Assembly: GCF_004117075.1 (NCBI RefSeq)
Contig: NZ_CP026721.1
Coordinates: 1,116,001-1,180,000 of the forward strand
DNA: 64,000 nucleotides
Reading direction: 5' to 3'
Source of the DNA: Fervidobacterium changbaicum
Lineage (GTDB): Bacteria; Thermotogota; Thermotogae; Thermotogales; Fervidobacteriaceae
A program made the position numbers and the translations under genes. Below, in pieces: positions 48,161 to 60,909 of this stretch (positions are counted from its first letter, which is position 1; each line of letters opens with the position of its first letter). The notes below the pieces were generated by a model. That model did not search any database. It saw only the letters and a program-made list of their open reading frames with translations, and was not told where the DNA came from.

Positions 48161-48976
48161 TCATTGTTCATTAATTTCTCTTAGTATTTCAACCATAATC
48201 TCGTAAAGTGTTTTGTACTCGGGAAACTTTGCGTTGAATATTTTCCGCTCGCTTTCGACAACTTCCCAATCACCACGTTTTATAGGTCCTGTAAGTGCGT
48301 CTTTTAGTTGCTTAGACCCTATGTTTTGACTAACGCTTTCAAGTAATTTCGAAATGACTTTTCTTGATAATTCTTCTGAGAAACCGATATCCATGTAAAG
48401 TCTTTGCGATAGGTAAGCTAATGCAACGGGGAAATTACTCGCAATAACCGCTGCCAGATGATATTCTGCCTTTTTCTCTTTAGGTATTACGACGTATTTA
48501 GCACCAATGAGCTCCACCAAGCATTTCGCTATCTGTAGCCCTTTCTCAGCTCCTTCAATGCCGAAAACTACATCGTTGAATTTTTGCCATTCATTTGCGA
48601 CAGCACAATTCGGATGCATAGAAGCAGGGGACCAATCCTGTGGCAGTATATCTGAAGGTAGGAAACCGCTGAAATGTATTGCTATTACATCGCTTCCGAC
48701 TTTCCCCTGAAGCATTTTTGGAATATCTGCCAGGACTGAATCACCCACACCTATCAGCAACACTCCATTAAGCAGAAAGTCGTCATCGTACGTTTTGGCT
48801 TCGGCACTTATCTCTTTGGCCAAACTTTCGGCTTTTCTTTTATCCCGCGATATAACGTATCCGAATTTAACTTTCCCTGAGAGGTTTCTTGTTAGTGAAG
48901 ATGAAACCCGCCCAACTCCTATCACATTTACGACGATATTGGATAGAGCCGAAATACCTTCCCCAACAAGATGCAT
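48161..48976 (-). CDS. Rossmann-fold DUF2520 protein
   Basis: A 271-residue protein with an N-terminal NAD(P)-binding Rossmann domain ('VVNVIGVGRVSSSLTRNL') and a C-terminal DUF2520 helical domain with the family landmarks 'SMHPNCAVANEWQKFNDVVFGIEG', 'EYHLAAVIASNFPVALAYL' and 'ALTGPIKRGDWEVVE'. The fold resembles ketopantoate reductase or 6-phosphogluconate dehydrogenase types, but no reaction is established. It follows meaB by 2 bp, so it belongs to the methylmalonyl-CoA mutase operon; a link to that pathway is possible but unproven. Confidence 0.85.
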   Translation of the reverse strand: MHLVGEGISALSNIVVNVIGVGRVSSSLTRNLSGKVKFGYVISRDKRKAESLAKEISAEAKTYDDDFLLNGVLLIGVGDSVLADIPKMLQGKVGSDVIAIHFSGFLPSDILPQDWSPASMHPNCAVANEWQKFNDVVFGIEGAEKGLQIAKCLVELIGAKYVVIPKEKKAEYHLAAVIASNFPVALAYLSQRLYMDIGFSEELSRKVISKLLESVSQNIGSKQLKDALTGPIKRGDWEVVESERKIFNAKFPEYKTLYEIMVEILREINEQ

Positions 48977-48978
48977 TC

Positions 48979-49947
48979 TCAGGACTTCCCTTCATTTTGC
49001 GTTCGATTTAGACAAAATTGTTCAACAACATCTTTAACGAGTTCGGAAACCTGCGTTGAATCTGCTAAATCACGTTTCGATAAAATTTCCGCAATACTTT
49101 TGTTTATAATCACCTCCGCATGCTTTTTAATCCGTCTCTTAGCCCTTTCTTTTATCTCACCTGTTTCGTTTAGCTTCACTTTGTGATTCTCTATCTCTTT
49201 GTAGAGCTCTTCGATACCTTTTCCGGAAGTAGCAACAGTTAACACTATTGGTTTTGAGGATTCTGAAAACTGAAGAACCATTTCGAGGTTGACTTTGAGT
49301 ATGTGCGCACCTTCCAGGTCGGATTTGTTGATTACGAAGATGTCTGCTATTTCCATAATTCCCGCTTTCATGAGCTGGATTTCATCTCCAGCAGCTGGTG
49401 ATAGCACCAAAACAACAGTGTCAGCAACGTAGGCTATGTCCACTTCACTCTGCCCAGCCCCTACGGTCTCAATGATAACGTAGTCGAAACCGTAAAGTTT
49501 GTAGAGTGTGATCACTCCAAAGACCGAATCGTTTAATCCCCCGACATTCCCTCTACTACCCATGCTTCTGATGAAAACGTTGTCGTCTGTGAAGTGCCTT
49601 TTCATCCTTATGCGATCACCAAGTAAAGCGCCCCCTGTGAAGGGACTCGAAGGATCAACAGCTATTATTCCTACTTTCTTACCATTTGCTCTTAGTTTTA
49701 CAACATAGGCATCGGTCAGCGTACTTTTTCCTGCACCAGGGCTACCAGTGAAACCTACGATATGAGAGCTGTTTTCTGCAAGTACGTCTTTGTACCTTTC
49801 TTCAACATTAAAAACAAGCTCTGGATTGTTTTCAATAAGTGTAATAGCCCTTGCAAGAGCCAGCTGGTCTTTTACAATTATTTTGTCACAGAGTGACAAA
49901 AGTTTTTGAATTTCGTTTTCTAAAGAACTTGCCGCTTTGTTTACCAT
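48979..49947 (-). CDS. meaB: Methylmalonyl-CoA mutase-associated GTPase MeaB
   Basis: MeaB protects methylmalonyl-CoA mutase and gates loading of adenosylcobalamin. This 322-residue G3E-type GTPase has the P-loop 'GFTGSPGAGKSTLTDAY', the switch region 'VDPSSPFTGGALLGDRIRM', 'DYVIIETVGAGQSEVDIAYVADTVVLVLSPAAGDEIQLMKAGIMEIADIFVINKSD' with Walker B and the NKSD guanine motif, and a C-terminal dimerisation arm. It lies 3 bp after the B12-binding subunit gene, which confirms its role. Confidence 0.95.
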   Translation of the reverse strand: MVNKAASSLENEIQKLLSLCDKIIVKDQLALARAITLIENNPELVFNVEERYKDVLAENSSHIVGFTGSPGAGKSTLTDAYVVKLRANGKKVGIIAVDPSSPFTGGALLGDRIRMKRHFTDDNVFIRSMGSRGNVGGLNDSVFGVITLYKLYGFDYVIIETVGAGQSEVDIAYVADTVVLVLSPAAGDEIQLMKAGIMEIADIFVINKSDLEGAHILKVNLEMVLQFSESSKPIVLTVATSGKGIEELYKEIENHKVKLNETGEIKERAKRRIKKHAEVIINKSIAEILSKRDLADSTQVSELVKDVVEQFCLNRTQNEGKS

Positions 49948-49950
49948 CTA

Positions 49951-50352
49951 TCAAGCTACCCCTTGCCCAACAACCTCTTGAACTTTCTTTACGATTTCCG
50001 ATATAGGAGTCCCGGGCCCGAAAACAGCTGCAATGCCCATTTTTAATAGTTGTTCTGCATCATCGGGAGGGATGATTCCACCGACAAAGACAGGAACGTG
50101 GAAGTTGTACTGGTCCATCAACTCAAGCACTTTTTTGCATATACTCAAATGCGCACCGGATAAGATGGACAGGCCAATTACGTCCACGTCTTCTTGCATT
50201 GCTGCTTTGACTATTTCTTCGGGTGTTTGCCTCAGGCCAGTGTAAATCACTTCCATTCCAGCGTCCCTCAGACCTCTTGCAACAACCTTCGCACCTCTGT
50301 CGTGCCCATCAAGACCAGGTTTTGCTATCAAAACTCGAATTTTCTTTTCCAT
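49951..50352 (-). CDS. Methylmalonyl-CoA mutase, B12-binding small subunit
   Basis: A 133-residue stand-alone cobalamin-binding domain. The motif DGHDRG (DxHxxG, His axial ligand) lies near residue 18 in '[43 protein letters not shown]', followed by '[12 protein letters not shown]' and '[28 protein letters not shown]'. The catalytic TIM-barrel subunit must be encoded elsewhere, as is common for split archaeal-type mutases. The enzyme interconverts succinyl-CoA and methylmalonyl-CoA. I start at ATG 50352 (AAAGGGGGAGTCGGGAT upstream); the frame from 50376 is longer without support. Confidence 0.93.
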
Positions 50353-50408
50353 ATCCCGACTCCCCCTTTCTTTCAAAGTTCACGTTTTTCCAAATATCTC
50401 TTGTTTCT

Positions 50409-50436: not shown

Positions 50437-50807
50437 ACGTTGATATAATCGGCACAAGATGTTTTTGAAATGAAGGTGTACGAAAACTTTGCTTAGCTCC
50501 ATTTTCTTCAAGATTTAACAGTGCTGCGATCGGATAATTTAAGGAGCAAACCTTCGGCGTTCTATGGTTATTTAACAGTCCTAATGCCAACACGAGTGAA
50601 TTCATTACTGTATAACTGTAATGTTATGGAAAATTAATCAATGTAATGTTTGAACTTAAGAGAGCGGAAGTATAATAATAGCAACAAGTTTGAACATTGT
50701 TTGAGTTCTTCAGTAAAACTAATAATTTCATTCATAATTTTCTCTTTAATTCCACTTCATGCAACTATTTCATCAATACATCGTGTTTTTCAGGGGAGTG
50801 GTTGGAT
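50437..50807 (+). promoter_or_regulatory. Leader and promoter region of the surface-system locus
   Basis: About 370 bp without a credible gene. A rightward promoter candidate is TTGAAC (50650-50655) with TATAAT at 50671-50676 (short 15-bp spacer) or AATAAT three bases on (18 bp). TAATGT-type repeats (for example AATGTAATGTTTGAAC near 50640, GTAATGTTATGG near 50613) are frequent but not regular. The open frame extends left to 50697 but that part has no ribosome site and reads like leader. Confidence 0.4.
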
Positions 50808-51566
50808 TTGATTCATTTTTTGGGAGATTTTTTTGTCGATGAAGTTCCAAATTGTAAACTTTCTAAGAGTGAACTCGTCACACTCGTTTATCTTATAACT
50901 AAGAAGAGTGCCTATTTGACAGAGATTGTTAACATCCTTGGAACAGCAAATTTGTATGATGAGTCCTATGCACGCAAGATATTAAAGAAACTTCCAGAAA
51001 AACTGGGTAATCAAGTTCGAATACTTAGTAGTGGGAGGTCAAAGGTTAAGATTGAACTTTCGACCGATGCTGACTTTGAAATCATTGAAAACACTATCGA
51101 AGCAATCCATGATGGAAGGTTAGATTACCAAAAAGGTGTTATGGAAATTGTTGAACTTTACAAAGGAGACCTTCTACCATTCTTAGACAACCCTTGGATT
51201 GTTTCGTATAGGAATCTGCTAAAATCTCTTGTTTTTCCAGTACTTTCAAAATCTTACGCTGATCCGGATACGCCAAGTCATATAAAGATTAGACTTTTAA
51301 AGATTCTCCCAGAACTTTACTCATCAACCATTAATATTGAGCTTTTCAAACTGATTTCAGAAAAATTCGAAGTCTCCTTGGCCAGTACCGTTTTTGATCT
51401 TTCAGATGGTTTGACGGCTGTGAAGTTGAGAATTAAAGAACCGGAGACCCTTCGACAAATACTGGATAATGTCAAGAAAGCTTCCTTACTTGGTGACACC
51501 GAACTTCTTCTTCTCGTCGATTCAGAGGTGGCTAAAGAATTTCTTTCAATACAAAGAACTAAATAA
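50808..51566 (+). CDS. SARP/BTAD-like regulator, divergent
   Basis: A 252-residue protein resembling a degenerate SARP-type regulator. The N-terminal third looks like a winged helix ('KLSKSELVTLVYLITKKSAYLTEIVNIL...YARKILKKLPEKLGNQVRIL'). A BTAD-like helical segment follows ('IIENTIEAIHDGRLDYQKGVMEIVELYKGDLLPFLDNPWIVSYRNLLKSLV'), with the typical 'YKGDLL...W...RNLL' spacing. The TTG start at 50808 has AGGGGAG nine bases upstream; the longer frame to 50697 lacks a site. It sits 29 bp before a second, clearer SARP-like gene. The role is inferred from fold resemblance only. Confidence 0.6.
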   Translation: MIHFLGDFFVDEVPNCKLSKSELVTLVYLITKKSAYLTEIVNILGTANLYDESYARKILKKLPEKLGNQVRILSSGRSKVKIELSTDADFEIIENTIEAIHDGRLDYQKGVMEIVELYKGDLLPFLDNPWIVSYRNLLKSLVFPVLSKSYADPDTPSHIKIRLLKILPELYSSTINIELFKLISEKFEVSLASTVFDLSDGLTAVKLRIKEPETLRQILDNVKKASLLGDTELLLLVDSEVAKEFLSIQRTK

Positions 51567-51595
51567 CCAAAAAGACTATCGTACGAGGTGAGAAC

Positions 51596-52381
51596 GTGAT
51601 CTACATTAAATTTTTTGGTGATTGGAAGGTCTATAAGGATGGTAACGAGTTCAACAGTTTTAAATCGAAAAAAGCTCTGAAGTTGCTCTTTTATCTTCTG
51701 CTCTCATCAAGAAGTAAAGTTTCCATCGAAGAATTAATTAGAACTTTTTGGTCTGGATACTCCTCTGAGTACGCACGGAAAAACTTAAATACACAGCTGT
51801 ACTACATAAGAAGAGATTTAGGCATTCCGTATAAATACTTGAGAAACGAAAGAGACTTTGTGTTTATTGATCACTCCTATTTTCAAAGCGATTACAGTGA
51901 TTTTATTAAAGCTATTGAAAATGCTGATACCAGGAAGGCTTCGGAAGTTTACTCGGGAATATTGCTTGATGGTCTTGAAGATGATTGGATAAGAAAACAT
52001 AGAATCAAATGTCAAAAACTTTACGAAGAGCTGCTGAAGATGAGTTCAGAGTCTCGAACCGAGGGCTATAAAGGTGTTTCTGAACTTATAGCAAAAGCCA
52101 AGGTCTTGATCGAGCATCAAAAGATCACACGTGAGAAATACTTTATCCCTGTTGAACTTCCAAAAATGGAATGTTGTAAAGAAATAAGGGTAAGAAAAGG
52201 GGACATAATTTTCGATTTGAGTGACAAACTTTTGATAATACTTGAGCGAGGAGTAAAGAGTTTTGATGATACAGTACGCGGTTTTGCCAAGAGGTTGGGA
52301 ATAGACCTAAGTGAGATCAATATTTTAACTGAGGAGGACGTTCTAAACATTCTTAGTTCTTTCAATTCCAAAACTGCTTAG
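51596..52381 (+). CDS. SARP/BTAD-like transcriptional regulator
   Basis: A 261-residue protein whose N-terminal domain matches an OmpR-type winged helix as found in SARP regulators: 'IKFFGDWKVYKDGNEFNSFKSKKALKLLFYLLLSSRSKVSIEELIRTFWSGYSSEYARKNLNTQLYYIRRDLG'. A BTAD region follows ('DYSDFIKAIENADTRKASEVYSGILLDGLEDDWIRKHRIKCQKLYEELLKMS'). The C-terminal 100 residues are unassigned. SARP proteins usually activate neighbouring biosynthetic or secretion genes, so it is a good candidate activator of the downstream exported-protein genes. GTG start at 51596, preceded by CGAGGTGAGAAC. Confidence 0.75.
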   Translation: MIYIKFFGDWKVYKDGNEFNSFKSKKALKLLFYLLLSSRSKVSIEELIRTFWSGYSSEYARKNLNTQLYYIRRDLGIPYKYLRNERDFVFIDHSYFQSDYSDFIKAIENADTRKASEVYSGILLDGLEDDWIRKHRIKCQKLYEELLKMSSESRTEGYKGVSELIAKAKVLIEHQKITREKYFIPVELPKMECCKEIRVRKGDIIFDLSDKLLIILERGVKSFDDTVRGFAKRLGIDLSEINILTEEDVLNILSSFNSKTA

Positions 52382-52417
52382 AATAAGTTCAAAGTACTAG
52401 TAAAAGGGGAGAAGTTG

Positions 52418-53791
52418 ATGATGAGAAAACTTATCTTAGTCTTTTCATTTTACGTTGTGCTACTAATTACAAGTGGATTCTCTCTGGAAATATCTCCCAG
52501 TTTGATATACCAAATAGACACTGCAAAATATCAATTCACATACGAGTTTTATGTGAAAAATGATATTCCTATCGATTCGCGAATAACCATTGAAATAATA
52601 GACTTTATAACAGACGGCAGAAGTTATTCATTCGACGACCCTGATTACAAGTACAGTCTTAAAAAGTACGTTCGTGTTGCGGATGCGTCTCTAAATTTGT
52701 CGGTTAATGAACAGAAACCTATTAAGGTAGTGTTCGACGTTCCTCAGAATTTTCCAGGCGCGGTCGGAATTTTCGCTTTGAAGATAACGCAAGAAAGTTC
52801 TTCTAGTGGAAAGGTCCAGCTAAGATTAAATTACATAGTACCGTTTTTTGTTAGGTTTACTAACGTGCCTGTTTACCAGTCTGTGGCAATTAAAAATATA
52901 TCTGTCAAAGATCTCCTGAATGAACCAGATGAAAAATATGGTGACTACGGTTCACTGATAACTCTCGAAATTGAAAATACCGGAAATATTGCGTTTATCC
53001 CGAAAGGGAACATGCAGATTTCCTCTAAGGTCTTAAGAACGATCATCACAGAGGTTCCTATTGATTCCTTTGACCTTGTTGTTTTCCCAGAAAGAAGAAC
53101 TTTCTATTCTGTATACATACCATACAGTTTACCTTCTGGGAGTATTGATGTGTTGCTAACGGGCAAGTCTTACGGACAAGAGTTTAGCATTAGCGCTTCG
53201 AAAGAGCTAAACACGAGCAATTCATTGTTAATTATCCAGAGCCAACCAATGATTATCCTTTTTACGGAAGGCACAAAAAATACTACACAGAATCTCGTTC
53301 TAAAAAATCTTTCTCCTCATAAAGAGACATTGCAATCAAGTCTCTCAGAAAACATATTCTCGTTCCTACCAAAAAAAGTCACACTTTATCCGTATAGAGA
53401 TGTTAGTATCAATATCAAAAGTAACATTAAGGATTTCAACTTCACTGGTGACAAGATATATTTAGTAGAATTCTCTGCAGAGTCTGGACGAAATATCTAT
53501 AATGTTTCCCCAAGTTATGTTGTATTACGCGGAAAAGTTATAAATCCGTCACTAAATGCTACAGTTAGCTCTTCGCAAGCAAGTTCCGTATTAATCGTCC
53601 AAAACACTGGAGATTGTATTTTAGAATTCAATGTGGTTTATAACAACCAAATGCTCAACGAAAAACCTTTGGTAATATTCCCTAGCCAAGTCATAAATTT
53701 AGACTTTGGAAGAGTTATAAGAACAAGCATATTAAAAATAGAATATTCCGCATATGGTGAGCAGAAAAAATACATCTACGATGGTTTTTAA
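52418..53791 (+). CDS. Secreted beta-sandwich protein with pilus-chaperone-like N-terminus
   Basis: A 457-residue exported protein with a signal peptide at residues 1-24 (cleavage near GFSLE). The first 150 residues resemble PapD-like periplasmic chaperones in strand pattern: 'ISPSLIYQID', 'FYVKNDIPIDSRITIEIIDF', a long strand region, then 'PGAVGIFALKITQES...LRLNYIVPFFVRF'. The rest looks like further Ig-like beta-sandwiches ('LENTGN', 'LVLKNLSPHKETLQ', 'LIVQNTGDCILEFNV'). The similarity is weak and the protein is twice the usual chaperone length, so the role is inference. ATG 52418 has AGGGGAGAAGTTG upstream. Confidence 0.6.
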   Translation: MMRKLILVFSFYVVLLITSGFSLEISPSLIYQIDTAKYQFTYEFYVKNDIPIDSRITIEIIDFITDGRSYSFDDPDYKYSLKKYVRVADASLNLSVNEQKPIKVVFDVPQNFPGAVGIFALKITQESSSSGKVQLRLNYIVPFFVRFTNVPVYQSVAIKNISVKDLLNEPDEKYGDYGSLITLEIENTGNIAFIPKGNMQISSKVLRTIITEVPIDSFDLVVFPERRTFYSVYIPYSLPSGSIDVLLTGKSYGQEFSISASKELNTSNSLLIIQSQPMIILFTEGTKNTTQNLVLKNLSPHKETLQSSLSENIFSFLPKKVTLYPYRDVSINIKSNIKDFNFTGDKIYLVEFSAESGRNIYNVSPSYVVLRGKVINPSLNATVSSSQASSVLIVQNTGDCILEFNVVYNNQMLNEKPLVIFPSQVINLDFGRVIRTSILKIEYSAYGEQKKYIYDGF

Positions 53792-54047
53792 TTTATTTTG
53801 ATCGAGATTGTTAATTTGTAGCGGTATAACATATAAGCTTACTTAACATTGTTATTGTTATGCTTCAAAAGGTTTCACGCTACACAAATGTATTTTGGTA
53901 AGTTCTCCATGTTTTCGTTAACACTTAGACCGTTGAAATCCTTTGAACATCAAAAAATTTGGTGGGGATGTTTTGAACTTTAGAAAATGATATGATTTTT
54001 GGATATTTTTATTTCAAAAGTATTCTTGATTCTTTGGGGGGTAAAAA
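53792..54047 (+). other. Intergenic region before the secretin-like gene
   Basis: About 255 bp, very AT-rich, with no gene. It may hold a separate promoter for the secretin-like gene (TTGAAC near 53972 and TATGAT near 53990, but the spacing is too short to be convincing). GGGGGGTAAAAA directly precedes the ATG at 54048. No terminator is evident. Confidence 0.4.
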
Positions 54048-55196
54048 ATGTACAAGAGATTGTTTGTTTTTCTGAGTTTTGTTGTTCTTCTAACCATTGT
54101 TCAAGCAATTGAAGTTTCGTTCTTTAATACTAATATAAAGGACGCACTAAACATGCTCTCTGTAGAAACGGGAGTTGTTATTATATATGAACCTTCCGTT
54201 AGCGGAGCTGTCAGTATACAGACCGAAGATGAATCGATCGAGAAAATTTTGGATCTCTTGCTCATGCCATACAGCTATTATTGGACTAAAGTGGACGATG
54301 TGTATTTCATAGGCAGTACAAATCCAAATTCAAGTGGTTTTACAAACGTTGCAAGAGTTTATCAAATTCCTCTTAAGTATAACCCTGCAGAGATGATAAT
54401 GGGTGCACTTCCAAGGATTTTCCAAGATTATATGCTAAAGCCGATTAATCAAAACAGCCTACTTGTCTACGCACCTCCCCCGATAGCCTCAAAAATTGCT
54501 TCTTTTGTTTCCCAAATAGATTTACCAATTAAGACAGAGGAAATTTACGTAAAAATATTGGACATTAGCGAGAGGTTTTTAAATACGCACTTAATCGATA
54601 TTGGAATACAACCTTACGTTTCTGGTGTTGCTTATGTGCCTAACATTTTTCAGATCCCTCTTTTTGGCACAAACCTCTATCTGCTTTTGAATCTCTCAAA
54701 CTCTGAAGGTGGCAACTCTGAGGTAGAAGTGCTTTACGAGGGTAAAGTTAAGGCAGCGAATGGAGTTCAAAGTAAACTAACCGCTCAGCGCAATTATACT
54801 ACAATGCGATACGTCGATGGAAAACTGACCAGTGTAATAAGTCAAGCAATTGTTGAAATGAATATAACCCCAAAATTTTTGTATAATAGATGCGTGTTGG
54901 ATTTATCACTCAAAATAGAGGGTTTTCCGTTTACAAATGAACTGAATTTCGAAACTCGTGGTACCTCTTTGCAGACAACTTTGAATTTAGAATATTCTAA
55001 ACCCTATCTTGTTGGTTCGTTCAGTTACGAAAGAACTGTCCAAAAAGAAGGTGGAATTAGTTTTCTAAAAGATCTACCCATAGTCGGATGGCTTTTCAAG
55101 AAATATTACAACGAATCTGAAAAGCGTTATATTATCTTCTTGGTATCCGTTGGTACGAACATGGAAAAAGATGTACTGGTCGGTGATTCAAGATGA
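54048..55196 (+). CDS. Short secretin-like outer-membrane protein
   Basis: A 382-residue exported protein with a signal peptide (1-20). An N0/STN-type domain follows ('EVSFFNTNIKDALNMLSVETGVVIIYEPSVSGAVSIQTEDESIEKILDLLL', about 21-80), then an N1-like domain ('ARVYQIPLKYNPAEMIMGALPRIF...SLLVYAPPPIASKIASFVSQIDLP', about 102-165). The C-terminal part ends 'GGISFLKDLPIVGWLFKKYYNESEKRYIIFLVSV', the secretin signature form of 'P-x-LG-x-IP-x-x-G-x-LF'. Secretins form large gated pores for type II/III secretion or type IV pili. At about 380 residues this is short, and no ATPase or inner-membrane partner lies nearby. It overlaps the next gene by 4 bp. Confidence 0.78.
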   Translation: MYKRLFVFLSFVVLLTIVQAIEVSFFNTNIKDALNMLSVETGVVIIYEPSVSGAVSIQTEDESIEKILDLLLMPYSYYWTKVDDVYFIGSTNPNSSGFTNVARVYQIPLKYNPAEMIMGALPRIFQDYMLKPINQNSLLVYAPPPIASKIASFVSQIDLPIKTEEIYVKILDISERFLNTHLIDIGIQPYVSGVAYVPNIFQIPLFGTNLYLLLNLSNSEGGNSEVEVLYEGKVKAANGVQSKLTAQRNYTTMRYVDGKLTSVISQAIVEMNITPKFLYNRCVLDLSLKIEGFPFTNELNFETRGTSLQTTLNLEYSKPYLVGSFSYERTVQKEGGISFLKDLPIVGWLFKKYYNESEKRYIIFLVSVGTNMEKDVLVGDSR

Positions 55197-56674
55197 AGAG
55201 AATTGCACTCTTAGCTTTTATTCTTCTAACGTGTTTCGGTGCACGCATTTTATCGATCACTCTCGACTTTTCAAATGCAGCACTCTCAGATGTTCTTAAT
55301 TACCTATCTAATGAGTCGAATGTGAATTTTGTGTACTCATCAGAATTTGGTAGCAGGTCTGTTTCAGTATCCCTACAAAATGTAGATCTCGAAACTGCAT
55401 TGAGAATGGTTCTGTTACCCTTGAATCTCGATTTTGAAAAAATCACCAAAGACACTTATGTGATACTCAACCTTTCGAAATACGGTTCTATGCCAAGATA
55501 CGCAGCTACATATGATCCGCGCTACGTATCTCCAGAAACGTTATCAAAAATTCTTGATAAGATGAAGATAGAAAACTACGTGCTGGGTGGTAGATTAACG
55601 TATTACGTATTTAGCCATAATCAGCTTATGCAGGTAAGAAACGTTTTATCAAAACTTGATACTGAACATGATGAAAATTCACAATCAGTATTGCTCAAAA
55701 TAACCTATCTTTCTACTTCTGAACTTAGAACGCTTAAGGAATTGTCAATTGAAGACCTTGGAAAGATACTGTTCACCGAAAGATATACAACCTTCTCCAC
55801 CACCACACACTATGTCTTGTTTAATTACACCTTAAAACAATCGAATTCCACACCGTATTCTCTTAATGATCCTACCGTAACTACTGAGGAAACGACTTTA
55901 GGAAGATATGAACTAAATGAAGGGGATTTTAGAATAAGTCTAATTGTCTTAGGAAAAGGTAATAATGTGATTATTAATGCGTCGAATGAGTTTTCGCAAG
56001 TTGAGGTCCCAGTTTTAGAAAACGTACGGGAGGAAAACCTTTCAGGTGCCGTCCTAAAGTCCGGGAATTTCTTAGTTTTCATAGAAGCCCACAGAATTGA
56101 CAGTTCCATGTGGACTGGTAAGAATGGTCTGACAACTGAAATTGAGAAAGTTAAGAAAGCAACGGATGGTAAGTCATTATTAAATTCTTTTGAAGTGTTT
56201 CTCAATGAATCCAGAGCAAAAATATCACTATCAAACGATAATAAGAGATTTTCTTTAGAGTTGGCAAACAGCACGGAAACGGGAATGAACGGTTGGAATG
56301 TTGAATCCTCAAGCATGTTTGTTAATATCCTCAGCGGAACTTACATTGGTATATCTTACAATTTTCCTAAGAACTCGTTCCGTCTTTTGTTAGAAGATGA
56401 GATTAAGATTTTTGATCAACTGTCTGTAACCCCACAAATTTCGTACGATTTTACGAATGGCTCTTTCTCAATAAAGGTGTGGGCAGATTTTACTTTATCG
56501 TTTTCACAAACGAGGCTGCTACTAAGTACAAGAATCTCAAGAGAGTCTACCGCTAACACGGTTAACTTAGGTTTCACAGCAGCTCTGGGTTTTGGAATAA
56601 ACACGGGAGAATATTGGGTTGGTCTTTATGTAGAGGATGGAAAGGTAGGGTTCTATGGTTCAGTCAAGTGGTAA
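55193..56674 (+). CDS. Exported N0/N1-domain protein with barrel-like C-terminus
   Basis: A 493-residue exported protein with a signal peptide (1-21). Its N-terminal organisation parallels the preceding secretin-like protein: an STN-type domain ('ITLDFSNAALSDVLNYLSNESNVNFVYSSEFGSRSVSVSLQNVDLETALRMVLL') and an N1-like domain ('YVSPETLSKILDKMKIENYVL...FSHNQLMQVRNVLSKLDTE'). It lacks the secretin C-terminal signature. The last 150 residues show alternating strands and end 'EYWVGLYVEDGKVGFYGSVKW', like an outer-membrane beta-barrel with a terminal aromatic. It could be a partner pore or anchor. Start overlaps the secretin stop (ATGA). Confidence 0.65.
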   Translation: MKRIALLAFILLTCFGARILSITLDFSNAALSDVLNYLSNESNVNFVYSSEFGSRSVSVSLQNVDLETALRMVLLPLNLDFEKITKDTYVILNLSKYGSMPRYAATYDPRYVSPETLSKILDKMKIENYVLGGRLTYYVFSHNQLMQVRNVLSKLDTEHDENSQSVLLKITYLSTSELRTLKELSIEDLGKILFTERYTTFSTTTHYVLFNYTLKQSNSTPYSLNDPTVTTEETTLGRYELNEGDFRISLIVLGKGNNVIINASNEFSQVEVPVLENVREENLSGAVLKSGNFLVFIEAHRIDSSMWTGKNGLTTEIEKVKKATDGKSLLNSFEVFLNESRAKISLSNDNKRFSLELANSTETGMNGWNVESSSMFVNILSGTYIGISYNFPKNSFRLLLEDEIKIFDQLSVTPQISYDFTNGSFSIKVWADFTLSFSQTRLLLSTRISRESTANTVNLGFTAALGFGINTGEYWVGLYVEDGKVGFYGSVKW

Positions 56675-56681
56675 GTGTCCT

Positions 56682-57134
56682 TTAAAACGGGTAAAAAGTG
56701 AATTCTAAGGTCACGGGGAACTCTTCGGTCTGGAGGTTTCCCCAATCTATATCGAAAGCAACCGAGAGATTTCCTTCCAACTTCTTCGAGGGGACTGAGA
56801 TAGTTTGACCAATGTTGATTGGTTCGGAACCAATTTTTAACTGCCTTGGTGCAACAACGGTTTGAATTGAATTTTCAGGAACGTACACGTTGACAGAAAT
56901 TTTGAATCGCTTATTAGATTGTATACTTATGAATCCAACGACACCTTCGGAACTTTCCGGATCCAATGGAATGGGTTGAGATTCGTTGTATTCCCATTGA
57001 ACTTTTACAGTTTGCTTGACTGTGAATGTGAGAACCTGACTCCAAGTTAATCCTCCTGGTTCAAGCAGTGCGTAAAAAATACCGGAACCGAAGGTGTTAA
57101 CTGCATATACGATAAGTAAAAAAAGATAGATAAT
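56682..57134 (-). CDS. Secreted 150-residue beta-sandwich protein, copy C (ATT start)
   Basis: An in-frame stretch from 57134 gives exactly 150 residues and aligns along its length with the copy at 57714: 'LTWSQVLTFTVKQTVKVQWEYNESQ' against 'TAWSQTLTFSVRQWIKVTWDYNENQ', then 'GFISIQSNKRFKI' against 'GNIEFRSNKQFKV', and the shared ending FTF(Y)PF. A hydrophobic export signal ('IIYLFLLIVYAVNTFG') opens it. No ATG, GTG or TTG is in frame before the signal; ATT at 57134 lies 9 bp after GGAG. The unsupported alternative is TTG 56966, which would discard half the domain. It follows copy B by 43 bp. Confidence 0.6.
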   Translation of the reverse strand: MIYLFLLIVYAVNTFGSGIFYALLEPGGLTWSQVLTFTVKQTVKVQWEYNESQPIPLDPESSEGVVGFISIQSNKRFKISVNVYVPENSIQTVVAPRQLKIGSEPINIGQTISVPSKKLEGNLSVAFDIDWGNLQTEEFPVTLEFTFYPF

Positions 57135-57177
57135 TTTCTGTTTCTCCGTGGTTGATCACTCCTCAGATCTTAATAGC

Positions 57178-57621
57178 TCAAAACGGCAAGAACACAAACG
57201 TCAACAGCAACGTAAAGTCATCAGGCAACTCAGTAAATGTAAAGTATATAACCAAATCTCCGTATAACCAACGATTTGGAACGGAGGTTGGATACGCAGG
57301 ATTTAGGGATATCCAGTCGTTTTTTATCCTGATTCGGCTTACACTAATACCTGTTGCATCAAAAATCTGCGCAACTGCGTAAACTTTGAATTTGATGTCT
57401 GAATATATGTATATCCTTCCTATTGTTGCAAGTTTGTTTACGTCATCAAAAATAAACCTCTGGTTTTCATCGTAGAACCACTGAATGTTTATAACAGCCC
57501 CAAACGTTGATAGAGCAAAAGAAGTTACAAGAACAACTATGGCAAGTGTTAACGAAAAGTTTTCTACAATCAAGTAAAGCATACTCACAATAGTCTTAAA
57601 ATTATCGTTGAACAAATTCAT
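57178..57621 (-). CDS. Membrane or secreted beta-sandwich protein, copy B
   Basis: A protein of about 147 residues, paralogous to copies A and C: 'INIQWFYDENQRFIFDDVNKLATIGRIYIYSDIKFKVYAVA' aligns with 'IKVTWDYNENQTFAVDDTNYTATVGNIEFRSNKQFKVYYGV', and the C-terminus ends LTFVFLPF. The N-terminus differs: a longer hydrophobic helix ('FSLTLAIVVLVTSFALSTFG') after a polar stretch, so it may stay membrane-anchored. ATG 57621 is preceded by AAAGGTGGTG (tight spacing); GTG 57624 and 57627 are alternatives. Function unknown; it is probably a structural surface subunit. Confidence 0.65.
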   Translation of the reverse strand: MNLFNDNFKTIVSMLYLIVENFSLTLAIVVLVTSFALSTFGAVINIQWFYDENQRFIFDDVNKLATIGRIYIYSDIKFKVYAVAQIFDATGISVSRIRIKNDWISLNPAYPTSVPNRWLYGDLVIYFTFTELPDDFTLLLTFVFLPF

Positions 57622-57647
57622 CACCACCTTTATTATACCACAACTTT

Positions 57648-57677
57648 CAAAAAACTAAGAGGGGCCTTAAGCCCCTC
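57648..57677 (-). terminator. Terminator after copy A of the secreted-protein tandem
   Basis: GAGGGGC / GCCCCTC (57659-57677) is followed on the minus strand by TTAGTTTTTT. It lies between copies A and B, so copy A can be expressed alone or in excess. Confidence 0.8.
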
Positions 57678-57713
57678 TCAAATATTTTAAACCTTTCACT
57701 CAAGTATTAAGTA

Positions 57714-58166
57714 TTAGAACGGAAGGAATGTGAAATCAAATCTCACTTGAAAGTCGTTTCCCACATTCAAAACCTCGGAGTTAAACTCAACAGCAAATGC
57801 TCCTGACAAAATTTTCGTTGAGACTTGCGTTGGTGAAGTGCTTGAGCTCGACAATGTTGTTGAACCAACTTTAAGAGAGACTACTTGAACACCTGTTGGT
57901 AAGGTACTACCAACGCCATAGTAAACTTTGAACTGTTTGTTTGACCTAAATTCGATGTTCCCAACTGTAGCCGTATAGTTTGTGTCGTCAACCGCAAAAG
58001 TTTGATTTTCATTATAGTCCCATGTAACTTTAATCCACTGTCTCACAGAGAATGTCAAAGTCTGGCTCCAAGCAGTGCTTTGGTTCAATTGCAAAGTTAC
58101 ACTTCCAGCCGCAAGCATAAGCCCCGTAAGTAACACCATCAACGAAACTACAAAAATCCTTCTCAT
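57714..58166 (-). CDS. Secreted 150-residue beta-sandwich protein, copy A
   Basis: A 150-residue protein with a clear signal peptide (MRRIFVVSLMVLLTGLMLAAG, cleavage near residue 21). The mature part is rich in Thr, Ser, Val and aromatics, with alternating strands and a C-terminal 'FQVRFDFTFLPF'. Size, single-domain beta structure and terminal aromatic strand recall pilus or coat subunits, but I find no family match by eye. GGGGAGGTAGTGAT precedes the ATG. It is the first of three tandem paralogues that face the secretin-like genes. Confidence 0.75.
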   Translation of the reverse strand: MRRIFVVSLMVLLTGLMLAAGSVTLQLNQSTAWSQTLTFSVRQWIKVTWDYNENQTFAVDDTNYTATVGNIEFRSNKQFKVYYGVGSTLPTGVQVVSLKVGSTTLSSSSTSPTQVSTKILSGAFAVEFNSEVLNVGNDFQVRFDFTFLPF

Positions 58167-58337: not shown

Positions 58338-58793
58338 TTACTCTAGTTCCACCAATACCTGCCCTGTGTCTACTGTATCTCCTTCTTTGACGTGAATCTT
58401 TTTGACGGTGCCAGCTCTATCTGCAACTATGTCGTTTTCCATCTTCATTGCTTCAAGAATTACAACTTTTTGCCCATATTCTACCTTCTGGCCTTCGCTA
58501 ACTAAAACTTTGAGGATAACGCCCGACATCGGAGAGATTATTTTCGCACTTAGACCCGATGAGCTCGCTGCCGGTTCTTGTGTTGATTGTGTTGGTCGTG
58601 GTACTTTTGTTTCTACAACCGCAGGACTTTTTTCTCCAAGGGCTTGCGATTGTGTTTGGACAGGTTGTGAAACTGTCTGGACGCTCTGAGTTATGGTGTT
58701 CTGAACACCTTGAGTTTGCTGAACAGCTCCGAGCTCTTCAACTTCAACCACGTACTCTTTTCCATTAACCCTGACAACGAATTTTCTCACCAT
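58338..58793 (-). CDS. Biotin carboxyl carrier subunit of the decarboxylase/carboxyltransferase
   Basis: A 151-residue biotin-carrier protein. A short N-terminal strand domain ('KFVVRVNGKEYVVEVEEL') is joined by a Gln/Thr/Pro-rich flexible linker (28-80) to a biotinyl domain with 'ISPMSGVILKVLVSEGQKVEYGQKVVILEAMKMENDIVADRAG'; the Lys in EAMKMEN carries biotin. It shuttles CO2 between the carboxyltransferase and the membrane decarboxylase subunit. The start overlaps the OadG-like gene by 7 bp. GAGGTGGAAATAG lies upstream. Confidence 0.93.
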   Translation of the reverse strand: MVRKFVVRVNGKEYVVEVEELGAVQQTQGVQNTITQSVQTVSQPVQTQSQALGEKSPAVVETKVPRPTQSTQEPAASSSGLSAKIISPMSGVILKVLVSEGQKVEYGQKVVILEAMKMENDIVADRAGTVKKIHVKEGDTVDTGQVLVELE

Positions 58794-59311
58794 CTATTTC
58801 CACCTCGCCATCCGTATGTTCTCCATTCTTCCCATCCACGCTGTCCTTTGATTCTTGTAGTCCTTGTTGCATTTGGAGGAACCTTGGTTACAGACCTAAC
58901 AACAACGTTTGTTCCAAGTACAGCATAGATTGCGCCAAAAACGGCCGCTATTTCTTCAGATTCATCTACTTTCGTTTGTGAAGTAGGTTGAATGCTTTTT
59001 TCCGAGATATTTTGCGTAGTTTGTATAGATTGTTCTTCTCTAGTTTCACCAGGTGCTTTTACTGATGGAATTTTCATCTGCTTATTCTTGCTTACTCCAA
59101 AATATTCCATCAGTTTAAATATCGCGTAAAGTATTACAAAAACAAGGAAAACAGTCGTTATTCCAACAATTGTCACTGTGAGTTCTATTGGCAATGATGT
59201 TGTCTGTGTAGCGGTTTGAGCTGTTGTTTGAACCAATGACGCCGCCTCGTTAATTAGTTGAGTAGCTTGGAGTGTTTGAGATAATTGTGTTACCGTAGCT
59301 TCAATAGGCAT
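58787..59311 (-). CDS. OadG-like gamma subunit of a Na+-pump decarboxylase
   Basis: A 174-residue protein with one transmembrane helix ('LPIELTVTIVGITTVFLVFVILYAIFKLMEYF', about 39-70) and a Gln/Thr/Glu-rich cytoplasmic tail ending 'VDESEEIAAVFGAIYAVLG...WRTYGWRGGNRW'. This is the pattern of the small gamma subunit that anchors the carboxyltransferase to the membrane decarboxylase in oxaloacetate and methylmalonyl-CoA decarboxylases. The pre-helix region is unusually long and polar. It lies between the carboxyltransferase and biotin-carrier genes. Confidence 0.88.
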   Translation of the reverse strand: MPIEATVTQLSQTLQATQLINEAASLVQTTAQTATQTTSLPIELTVTIVGITTVFLVFVILYAIFKLMEYFGVSKNKQMKIPSVKAPGETREEQSIQTTQNISEKSIQPTSQTKVDESEEIAAVFGAIYAVLGTNVVVRSVTKVPPNATRTTRIKGQRGWEEWRTYGWRGGNRW

Positions 59312-59364
59312 TTGCTTATCACCTCGTTAGTGTTTGGAAACTTCGAATCAGAAAGTTACGAGTA

Positions 59365-60909
59365 TTACAGCGGTATGTTTCCGTGTTTTTTCCTCGGTCT
59401 TGACTCAACTTTTGTCGCACTGTACTCAAGTGCTTTTTCGATCCACGTTCTTGTTTCTGCTGGATCAATTACGGCATCTATATAACCTCTTGATGCTGCG
59501 ACATATGGATTTGCAAAGAGTTGTCTGTACTCTTCTATTTTCTGTTTTCTTGTTTCTTCTGGATTTTCGGAAGAGTCAATTTCTTTTTTGAATATGATAT
59601 TGGCTGCGCCATCCGGACCCATAACAGCAATTTCTGCCGTCGGCCAGGCAGCTACAAAATCAGCCCCTAGGTGTTTACTGCCCATCGCGATATACGCCCC
59701 ACCGTATGCCTTTCTCAAGATTATCGTTATTTTTGGAACCGTAGCCTCACTGTAAGCGTACAGCAATTTGGCGCCATGCCTGATTATTCCTCCGTGCTCT
59801 TGTTTTGTTCCTGGTAGATATCCCGGTGTATCAACAAATGTGATAATCGGAATGTTGAACGCATCCAAGAACCTTATAAACCTTGCCGCTTTGTCAGAGG
59901 AGTCTATATCAAGCACACCAGCAAGGTAGTTTGGTTGGTTTGCAACAATTCCAACAGACCTTCCGTTGATTCTTGCAAAGCCAACAACTATGTTCTTTGC
60001 AAAATGTTCGTGCACCTCGAAAAACGTTCCTTCGTCGACAACTTTCTTTATCACATCACGTACGTCAAAACCTTTCTTAGGATCAACAGGAACTATCGTG
60101 TGAATATCTGAACTATTTGGAACTGTCACTTCCCCTTCAAAAGGTGGTTCTTCCATATTGTTCTGCGGAATGTAAGAAATTAGTTTTTTAACCATTTCTA
60201 TAGCTTGTTTATCATCTGACGCTAAGAAATGCGCGTTTCCGCTCTTGGTGTTGTGAACGAACGCACCTCCGAGGTCTTCTTTTGATATGTCTTCGCCTGT
60301 AACAGCCTTTATGACGTTTGGACCGGTGATAAACATCTGTGCCGTTTTGTCAACCATCACGACAAAATCTGTTATTGCTGGAGAATAAACCGCCCCTCCG
60401 GCGCATGGACCTGCGATAACGGTGATTTGTGGTATTACACCGGAAGCTATTGTGTTCCTGAAGAATATCTCTCCGTAGCCGTAAAGTGAATCAACACCTT
60501 CTTGTATTCGCGCACCGCCAGAATCGTTTATCCCAACAAGCGGGATGCCCATTTTAAGCGCCAAATCCATTACCTTCATTATCTTTTTTGCGTGCATTTC
60601 ACCAAGTGAACCACCCATAACTGTAAAGTCCTGTGAAAATGCGGCAACAGGTCTCCCGTTTACTTTTCCAATGCCTGTCACAACACCATCAGCGGGTAGC
60701 TTCATCTTATCGAGTCCAAACATGGTATTTCTATGTTTAACAAACTTATCGATTTCCTCAAATGTTCCTTCGTCAAATAGCAACTGGAGTCTTTCGCGAG
60801 CTGTTAATTTCCCTTCTGCATGTTGCTTTTCTATTTTGTCCTGGCCACCACCTTGTTCAACTTCAGCTTCTATGGATTTGAGCTGCTGTATAAGTTCTTC
60901 CATCTCCAT
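59365..60909 (-). CDS. Methylmalonyl-CoA decarboxylase/propionyl-CoA carboxylase alpha subunit (carboxyltransferase)
   Basis: A 514-residue acyl-CoA carboxyltransferase with the two crotonase-like halves: 'GKLTARERLQLLFDEGTFEEIDKFVKHR', 'SQDFTVMGGSLGEMHAKKI', 'GINDSGGARIQEGVDSLYGYGEIF', 'FVDTPGYLPGTKQEHGGIIRHGAKLLYAYSEATVPKITIILRKAYGGAYIAMGSKHLGADFVAAWPTAEIAVMGPDGAANII'. With epimerase next to it and the B12 mutase subunit 10 kb away, methylmalonyl-CoA/propionyl-CoA is the likely substrate pair. Direction (Na+-pumping decarboxylation or carboxylation) cannot be read. GGGGTGGATTAG precedes the ATG. Confidence 0.93.
   Translation of the reverse strand: MEMEELIQQLKSIEAEVEQGGGQDKIEKQHAEGKLTARERLQLLFDEGTFEEIDKFVKHRNTMFGLDKMKLPADGVVTGIGKVNGRPVAAFSQDFTVMGGSLGEMHAKKIMKVMDLALKMGIPLVGINDSGGARIQEGVDSLYGYGEIFFRNTIASGVIPQITVIAGPCAGGAVYSPAITDFVVMVDKTAQMFITGPNVIKAVTGEDISKEDLGGAFVHNTKSGNAHFLASDDKQAIEMVKKLISYIPQNNMEEPPFEGEVTVPNSSDIHTIVPVDPKKGFDVRDVIKKVVDEGTFFEVHEHFAKNIVVGFARINGRSVGIVANQPNYLAGVLDIDSSDKAARFIRFLDAFNIPIITFVDTPGYLPGTKQEHGGIIRHGAKLLYAYSEATVPKITIILRKAYGGAYIAMGSKHLGADFVAAWPTAEIAVMGPDGAANIIFKKEIDSSENPEETRKQKIEEYRQLFANPYVAASRGYIDAVIDPAETRTWIEKALEYSATKVESRPRKKHGNIPL

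Follow-up and report, generated by a model that had tools for sequence, protein, structure and literature searches.

A conserved Thermotogota gene cassette pairing a short secretin with a WxLIP-related protein

Gene content of the locus

We analyzed a cassette of genes in Fervidobacterium changbaicum that lies within a window of 64,000 nucleotides (contig NZ_CP026721.1, positions 1,116,001 to 1,180,000; all coordinates below for this genome are those of the window unless given in Mb). The cassette encodes two regulator-like proteins (RegA and RegB), a secreted protein built of several immunoglobulin (Ig)-like domains, a short secretin, a partner protein that shares the N-terminal domains of the secretin, and three small secreted β-rich paralogues (p1, p2 and p3) (Table 1). 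All of these genes had been listed in an earlier reading made from the sequence alone (hereafter the sequence-only reading), and the open reading frame (ORF) list and the sequence confirm each of them. The three small paralogues are carried on the reverse strand, and face the forward-strand genes for the regulators, Ig protein, secretin and partner.

Table 1. Genes of the cassette and their positions in the window.
Gene product	Length (amino acids)	Position	Strand	Basis
RegA, regulator-like protein	289	50697-51566	+	ORF list; true start uncertain
RegB, SARP/BTAD-type winged-helix regulator	261	51596-52381	+	PF00486 weak match, E 0.0018
Secreted multi-Ig protein, WxLIP/DUF916-related	458	52415-53791	+	Profile matches
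Short outer-membrane secretin (N0-N1-secretin domain)	382	54048-55196	+	Pfam, profile, linker motif
Partner: secretin N0-N1 and predicted C-terminal outer-membrane β-barrel, final W	493	55193-56674	+	
p3, small secreted β-rich paralogue		56682-57149	-	Homologous to p1 and p2
p2, small secreted β-rich paralogue	149	57178-57627	-	ORF, homology
p1, small secreted β-rich paralogue	150	57714-58166	-	ORF, homology

The core of the cassette is recognizable by its domains. In the window, the secretin matches PF00263 with 37.7 bits (cut-off 27.5) and the STN domain with 29.5 bits, and the partner, whose reading frame overlaps that of the secretin by 4 bp, matches STN with 40.4 bits. The window copy of the Ig protein does not fit any one curated family. 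The gene for p3 appears in the ORF list as an entry of 94 amino acids (56682-56966), but its frame and signal peptide extend upstream to ~57149. At 57147-57149, where relatives have ATG, it has ACG, which is preceded by a good ribosome-binding site; as no standard start codon is present, p3 either uses a non-standard start or has been silenced recently.

The regulators are less readily classified. RegA, for which the start at 50808 given by the sequence-only reading is a possible alternative, matches no Pfam family above cut-off; its close homologues occur only at the same locus position in congeners and relatives, and it shows a weak likeness to RegB-type regulators. In Thermotoga-type loci, the RegB homologues that occupy this position match the BTAD family PF03704 with 35.4 bits (cut-off 22.1). 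In two congeners RegB is spread over two reading frames that are split at different places (L033 7506-8335 and L035 7330-8135). The whole cassette interrupts a methylmalonyl-CoA/propionate gene cluster, with genes for MeaB and a B12 subunit on its left (48161-50376), and a biotin carrier and carboxyltransferase on its right (58338-60909).

Conservation and loss of the cassette as a unit

A sample of 103 Thermotogota genomes was searched with the short secretin and with a profile of the Ig protein. The short secretin is present in 59 genomes and the Ig protein in 57, all of which also encode the secretin; none of the 103 genomes carries the Ig protein without it, and in the two secretin-only genomes the secretin sits at a contig edge. 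The Ig gene lies directly upstream of 62 of the 70 secretin genes that were found, and the other eight comprise contig edges, unlisted fragments, one broken Ig gene (genome G075), and the genomes G020 and G021, where the Ig gene is nearby and turned. Gene maps of 40 regions display a constant order of small secreted gene or genes, Ig protein, secretin and partner, with the small genes located upstream or, in the genus of the window, downstream and convergent. A small secreted gene is found nearby in 37 of 39 cassettes and a BTAD-type regulator no more than six genes away in 24 of 39; in one region (L064) the gene that follows the regulator was confirmed to encode a GGDEF protein. Signal-like N-termini are more frequent close to the cassette (228 of 336 within four genes, as compared to 75 of 265 further off).

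The cassette is gained or lost as a block. This follows from the constant gene order in combination with the corresponding site in two congeners: in one (G071), a gap of 365 bp, free of cassette sequence, separates the genes for the B12-binding subunit and the biotin carrier, and in the other (G074; locus L196), only decayed fragments of RegA, the Ig protein, p1 and p3 are left. The sequence-only reading had named scattering of the genes in relatives as an outcome that would refute its proposal of a dedicated locus; the adjacency of the genes and their absence as a block show that they are not scattered. The same two observations, together with the co-occurrence of Ig protein and secretin in 57 genomes, rule out chance neighbors. 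Decaying copies also occur, as the secretin of locus L035 (G067) contains an internal stop and the broken Ig gene of G075 belongs to locus L036. Searches of plasmids for the Ig protein and the secretin returned nothing useful.

Relationship of the encoded proteins to known systems

The short secretin is homologous to the secretins of type II secretion systems (T2SS) and type IV pili (T4P) (GspD and PilQ; PF00263) in its N0, N1 and secretin domains, and when the profile of its family is compared with solved structures, GspD and PilQ are the best matches (E ~1e-40). However, it differs from them in several respects. The profile scores only 51-126 bits on the long Thermotogota secretins, E. coli GspD, HofQ and phage pIV. 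A linker motif, Y-[FLYIV]-[VIL]-[GASTC]-x2-[DNT]-[PA], is present in 38 of 39 short secretins, but in none of 18 GspD, HofQ, pIV and long secretin sequences. The long Thermotogota secretins are monophyletic (support 0.975), and the short secretin is not among them. The sequence-only reading had counted on a secretin outside the standard set, and the separate clade of the long secretins, which are devoid of the linker motif, agrees with this. The short family itself holds together in a tree built from N0 to the C-terminus (support 0.96), but is not kept together in a tree of the C-terminal domain only; the deep order of the trees is poorly supported. The possibility that the short secretin is a truncated copy of a long one was rejected, as the long secretins form a clade of their own. 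In many genomes these other Thermotogota secretins are very long (1200-2600 amino acids), with the secretin domain at the end (e.g. G000:C1:1230338-1233796, locus L001).

As a short stand-alone secretin, the protein also resembles pIV of filamentous phages, and the secretins of Vibrio phages VFJ and fs2 align over 91-97% of a Thermotoga-type sequence with ~26% identity. The phage protein does not have the linker motif, however, and filamentous-phage export needs the assembly protein pI besides pIV, which is absent from the cassette.

Members of the short-secretin family are also found in a second phylum. One secretin profile (A2) covered too much diversity for contigs to be scanned with it, and a narrower one (A5) returned 7 loci, one of which is from Armatimonadota. 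In a Fimbriimonas metagenome-assembled genome, genes for secreted proteins of 512 and 147 amino acids are followed by a 570-amino acid Ig protein and a 470-amino acid short secretin, and the genome carries four such Ig genes. The Ig protein has a match at E 1e-15 or better in 19 of 151 Armatimonadota genomes, and nearly all full-length Ig genes that could be checked have a secretin of the family next to them on the same strand (the exceptions are G114:C169, which has no adjacent secretin, and G164, where the secretin lies a few genes on). We regard the secretins of the two phyla as kin because of the profile score (281 bits for the Fimbriimonas protein, versus 51-126 bits), the linker motif and the gene order; the node that joins the short family to the Armatimonadota sequences in the N0-to-C-terminus tree has a support of only 0.56. 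As Armatimonadota carry the core too, the cassette is not specific to the toga. In other Armatimonadota loci (L173-L180), up to three secretin-like genes with related sequences stand in a row (~450, 580 and 550 amino acids), but they have no Ig protein beside them and form a separate clade (support 1.0).

The Ig protein is, as judged from family profiles, a homologue of WxLIP (DUF916) and not a typical PapD. The profile of the family matches the solved structure of EfmWxLIP1 (PDB 9i1y and 9i25) with E 2e-8 over its first domain, and 20 of 36 family members match the WxLIP_PGBD family PF06030 (best E 1e-8). The sequence-only reading had described a PapD-like β-sandwich; this was broadly right in that the domains are of the Ig type, but the nearest solved relative is WxLIP rather than PapD. 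For WxLIP, a hairpin strand is predicted to enter the β-sandwich of its WxL partner, and binding to peptidoglycan has also been proposed (PMC10599100). Strand complementation, an idea that came with the PapD assignment, may thus be retained by way of this relative.

The partner occurs in two forms. The first has N0-N1 in common with the secretin (hhalign 99.9%), the second can be aligned with the core domain of the secretin (93.4%), and a C-terminal region is found in both (93.7%). The last 140 residues of the window partner follow an alternating strand pattern (z 3.8; mostly 2-4.6 across homologues), and 33 of 39 homologues end in F, W or Y. Alternating strands and a C-terminal aromatic residue are typical of outer-membrane barrels, and we read the partner as a secretin-derived protein with a predicted barrel of its own. 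The small protein p1 is a probable exported subunit. Assignments of the small proteins to WxL, PapD pilin or spore-coat domains were rejected, as they found no support in Pfam or the Protein Data Bank (PDB).

The cassette lacks a defining feature of each of three known systems (T2SS/T4P, chaperone-usher pili and WxL clusters), and we therefore rate the cassette as a gene system of a new kind, with a presumptive function in export. T2SS and T4P differ from it in that no ATPase, platform protein or pilin is seen in the cassette. The WxL/WxLIP (DUF916-DUF3324) clusters of Gram-positive bacteria also place a homologous Ig-type protein beside small secreted β-rich proteins, but the cassette has no WxL domain (PF13731 is above cut-off in 0 of 103 Thermotogota genomes, whereas a Lactococcus control was positive), includes two additional outer-membrane proteins and a longer Ig protein, and belongs to diderm hosts. 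Chaperone-usher pili are similar in logic only, as they combine an Ig-like periplasmic protein, small β subunits and an outer-membrane pore with no motor. The pore of the cassette is instead a secretin; the usher PF00577 has no match above cut-off in the 103 genomes (an E. coli control was positive), and the earlier suggestion that a minimal secretin pore stands in for the usher is well supported.

A candidate motorless export system and its alternatives

The best explanation, to which we give an even chance, is that the cassette is one unit encoding an ATPase-less system for surface export or assembly, in which a minimal secretin is dedicated to the task and a WxLIP-like protein acts as chaperone or anchor. 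In such a system, the small β-rich proteins and the other non-regulatory products would cross the inner membrane by Sec. Once in the periplasm, the small proteins would be bound by the multi-Ig protein, which would probably lend them a strand and may also retain them at the peptidoglycan. A ring of the short secretin in the outer membrane would then provide the exit route for the subunits, with the partner stacked on or beside it so as to anchor, pilot or gate the ring. Outside of the cell, the subunits may form a fiber, coat (or toga layer) or adhesive layer, and the driving force would come from folding or assembly. The BTAD regulators, which adjoin a GGDEF protein in some lineages, would switch the cassette.

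Several points weigh against this model. Secretins do not usually work without a motor in the inner membrane, and the cassette could also draw on a motor encoded at another site. The homology of the Ig protein to WxLIP is carried by the family profile, as the window protein by itself matches PF06030 only weakly (13.7 bits). An AlphaFold2 model of the partner (5 sequences) has an overall pLDDT (predicted local distance difference test) of 45 and is confident only in N0, the model of p1 (6 sequences) is poor (pLDDT 44), and Pfam and PDB searches gave no known fold for the small proteins. Finally, the barrel partner was not found beside the Ig-secretin pairs of Armatimonadota with the profiles used.

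There are two main alternatives, an envelope tether and a second PilQ. In the tether, the Ig protein would bind peptidoglycan, the outer membrane would contain the secretin ring and the barrel partner, and the small proteins would act as spacers by which the outer membrane or toga is held. The peptidoglycan binding proposed for WxLIP, the predicted barrel and the lack of a motor are all compatible with such an arrangement. We nevertheless consider it unlikely, as an essential tether would not be limited to 59 of 103 Thermotogota genomes and lost within a genus as the cassette is, there is no toga in Armatimonadota, and tethering needs no secretin pore.

It is quite unlikely that the short secretin is instead a second PilQ for T4P or DNA uptake, whose ATPase, platform and pilins are encoded elsewhere and whose neighbors are accessory pilus factors. 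In addition to the structural matches to GspD and PilQ, this explanation draws on the RQ7 genome paper, which lists TM1117 and TM0088 of T. maritima as pilQ candidates (PMC5637354), as TM1117 is plausibly the T. maritima orthologue of the short secretin. T2SSE ATPases are also present in 103 of 103 Thermotogota genomes, both those with and those without the cassette; in the F. changbaicum genome, the two ATPase genes map to 0.19 and 0.46 Mb and the cassette to 1.17 Mb, a distance of at least 0.7 Mb. However, genomes devoid of the cassette retain the long secretin (e.g. G069, G071, G076, G077 and G085), which belongs to a separate clade. Moreover, the genomes of one family (f10; G035-G055) have only a PilT-size T2SSE ATPase and no PilB-size one, and 13 of them carry the cassette, which is independent of the PilB ATPase. 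The gene that invariably accompanies the short secretin encodes the Ig protein and is not a pilus gene. By Pfam, there are no pilins, pseudopilins or platform protein among the cassette genes of the window (the neighborhoods of relatives were not scanned systematically).

An uptake or sensing module, in which the secretin would serve as a large porin fed by small β proteins that bind polysaccharide at the surface, is very improbable. The window cassette does sit within a propionate gene cluster, and one report links related Gram-positive surface clusters to carbohydrate use (PMC1534035). However, the gene maps show flanking genes that differ between lineages, genes for a transporter or glycosidase do not accompany the cassette consistently, and known secretins are gated export channels.

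Returning to the model of motorless export, we infer that the cassette probably provides an undescribed route for putting proteins on the cell surface. At a little under even odds, it would represent a new class of diderm export, namely a motorless, secretin-based surface assembly with a WxLIP-type chaperone and a secretin-barrel co-pore, whose core is common to Thermotogota and Armatimonadota and whose chaperone is related to the WxL complexes of Gram-positive bacteria. The sequence-only reading knew of no described system with this gene set, and none was found in the open-access literature, in which no paper on the combination of a secretin with DUF916 was found either (subscription literature was not searchable). 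The only mention of the likely T. maritima orthologue found in the open literature is as a pilQ candidate, and current annotation thereby hides the cassette, as this plausible orthologue is simply named pilQ.

In a 2016 survey of secretion systems, Thermotogae stood out as the one diderm clade in which none was found; its authors suggested that the clade had evolved systems of its own (PMC4793230). The cassette is a concrete candidate for such a system, and it is present in 59 of 103 genomes that include cultivable species, among them Thermotoga. If the model is true, a secretin would work without its usual motor, and the WxL complexes of Gram-positive bacteria would be linked to export across the outer membrane.

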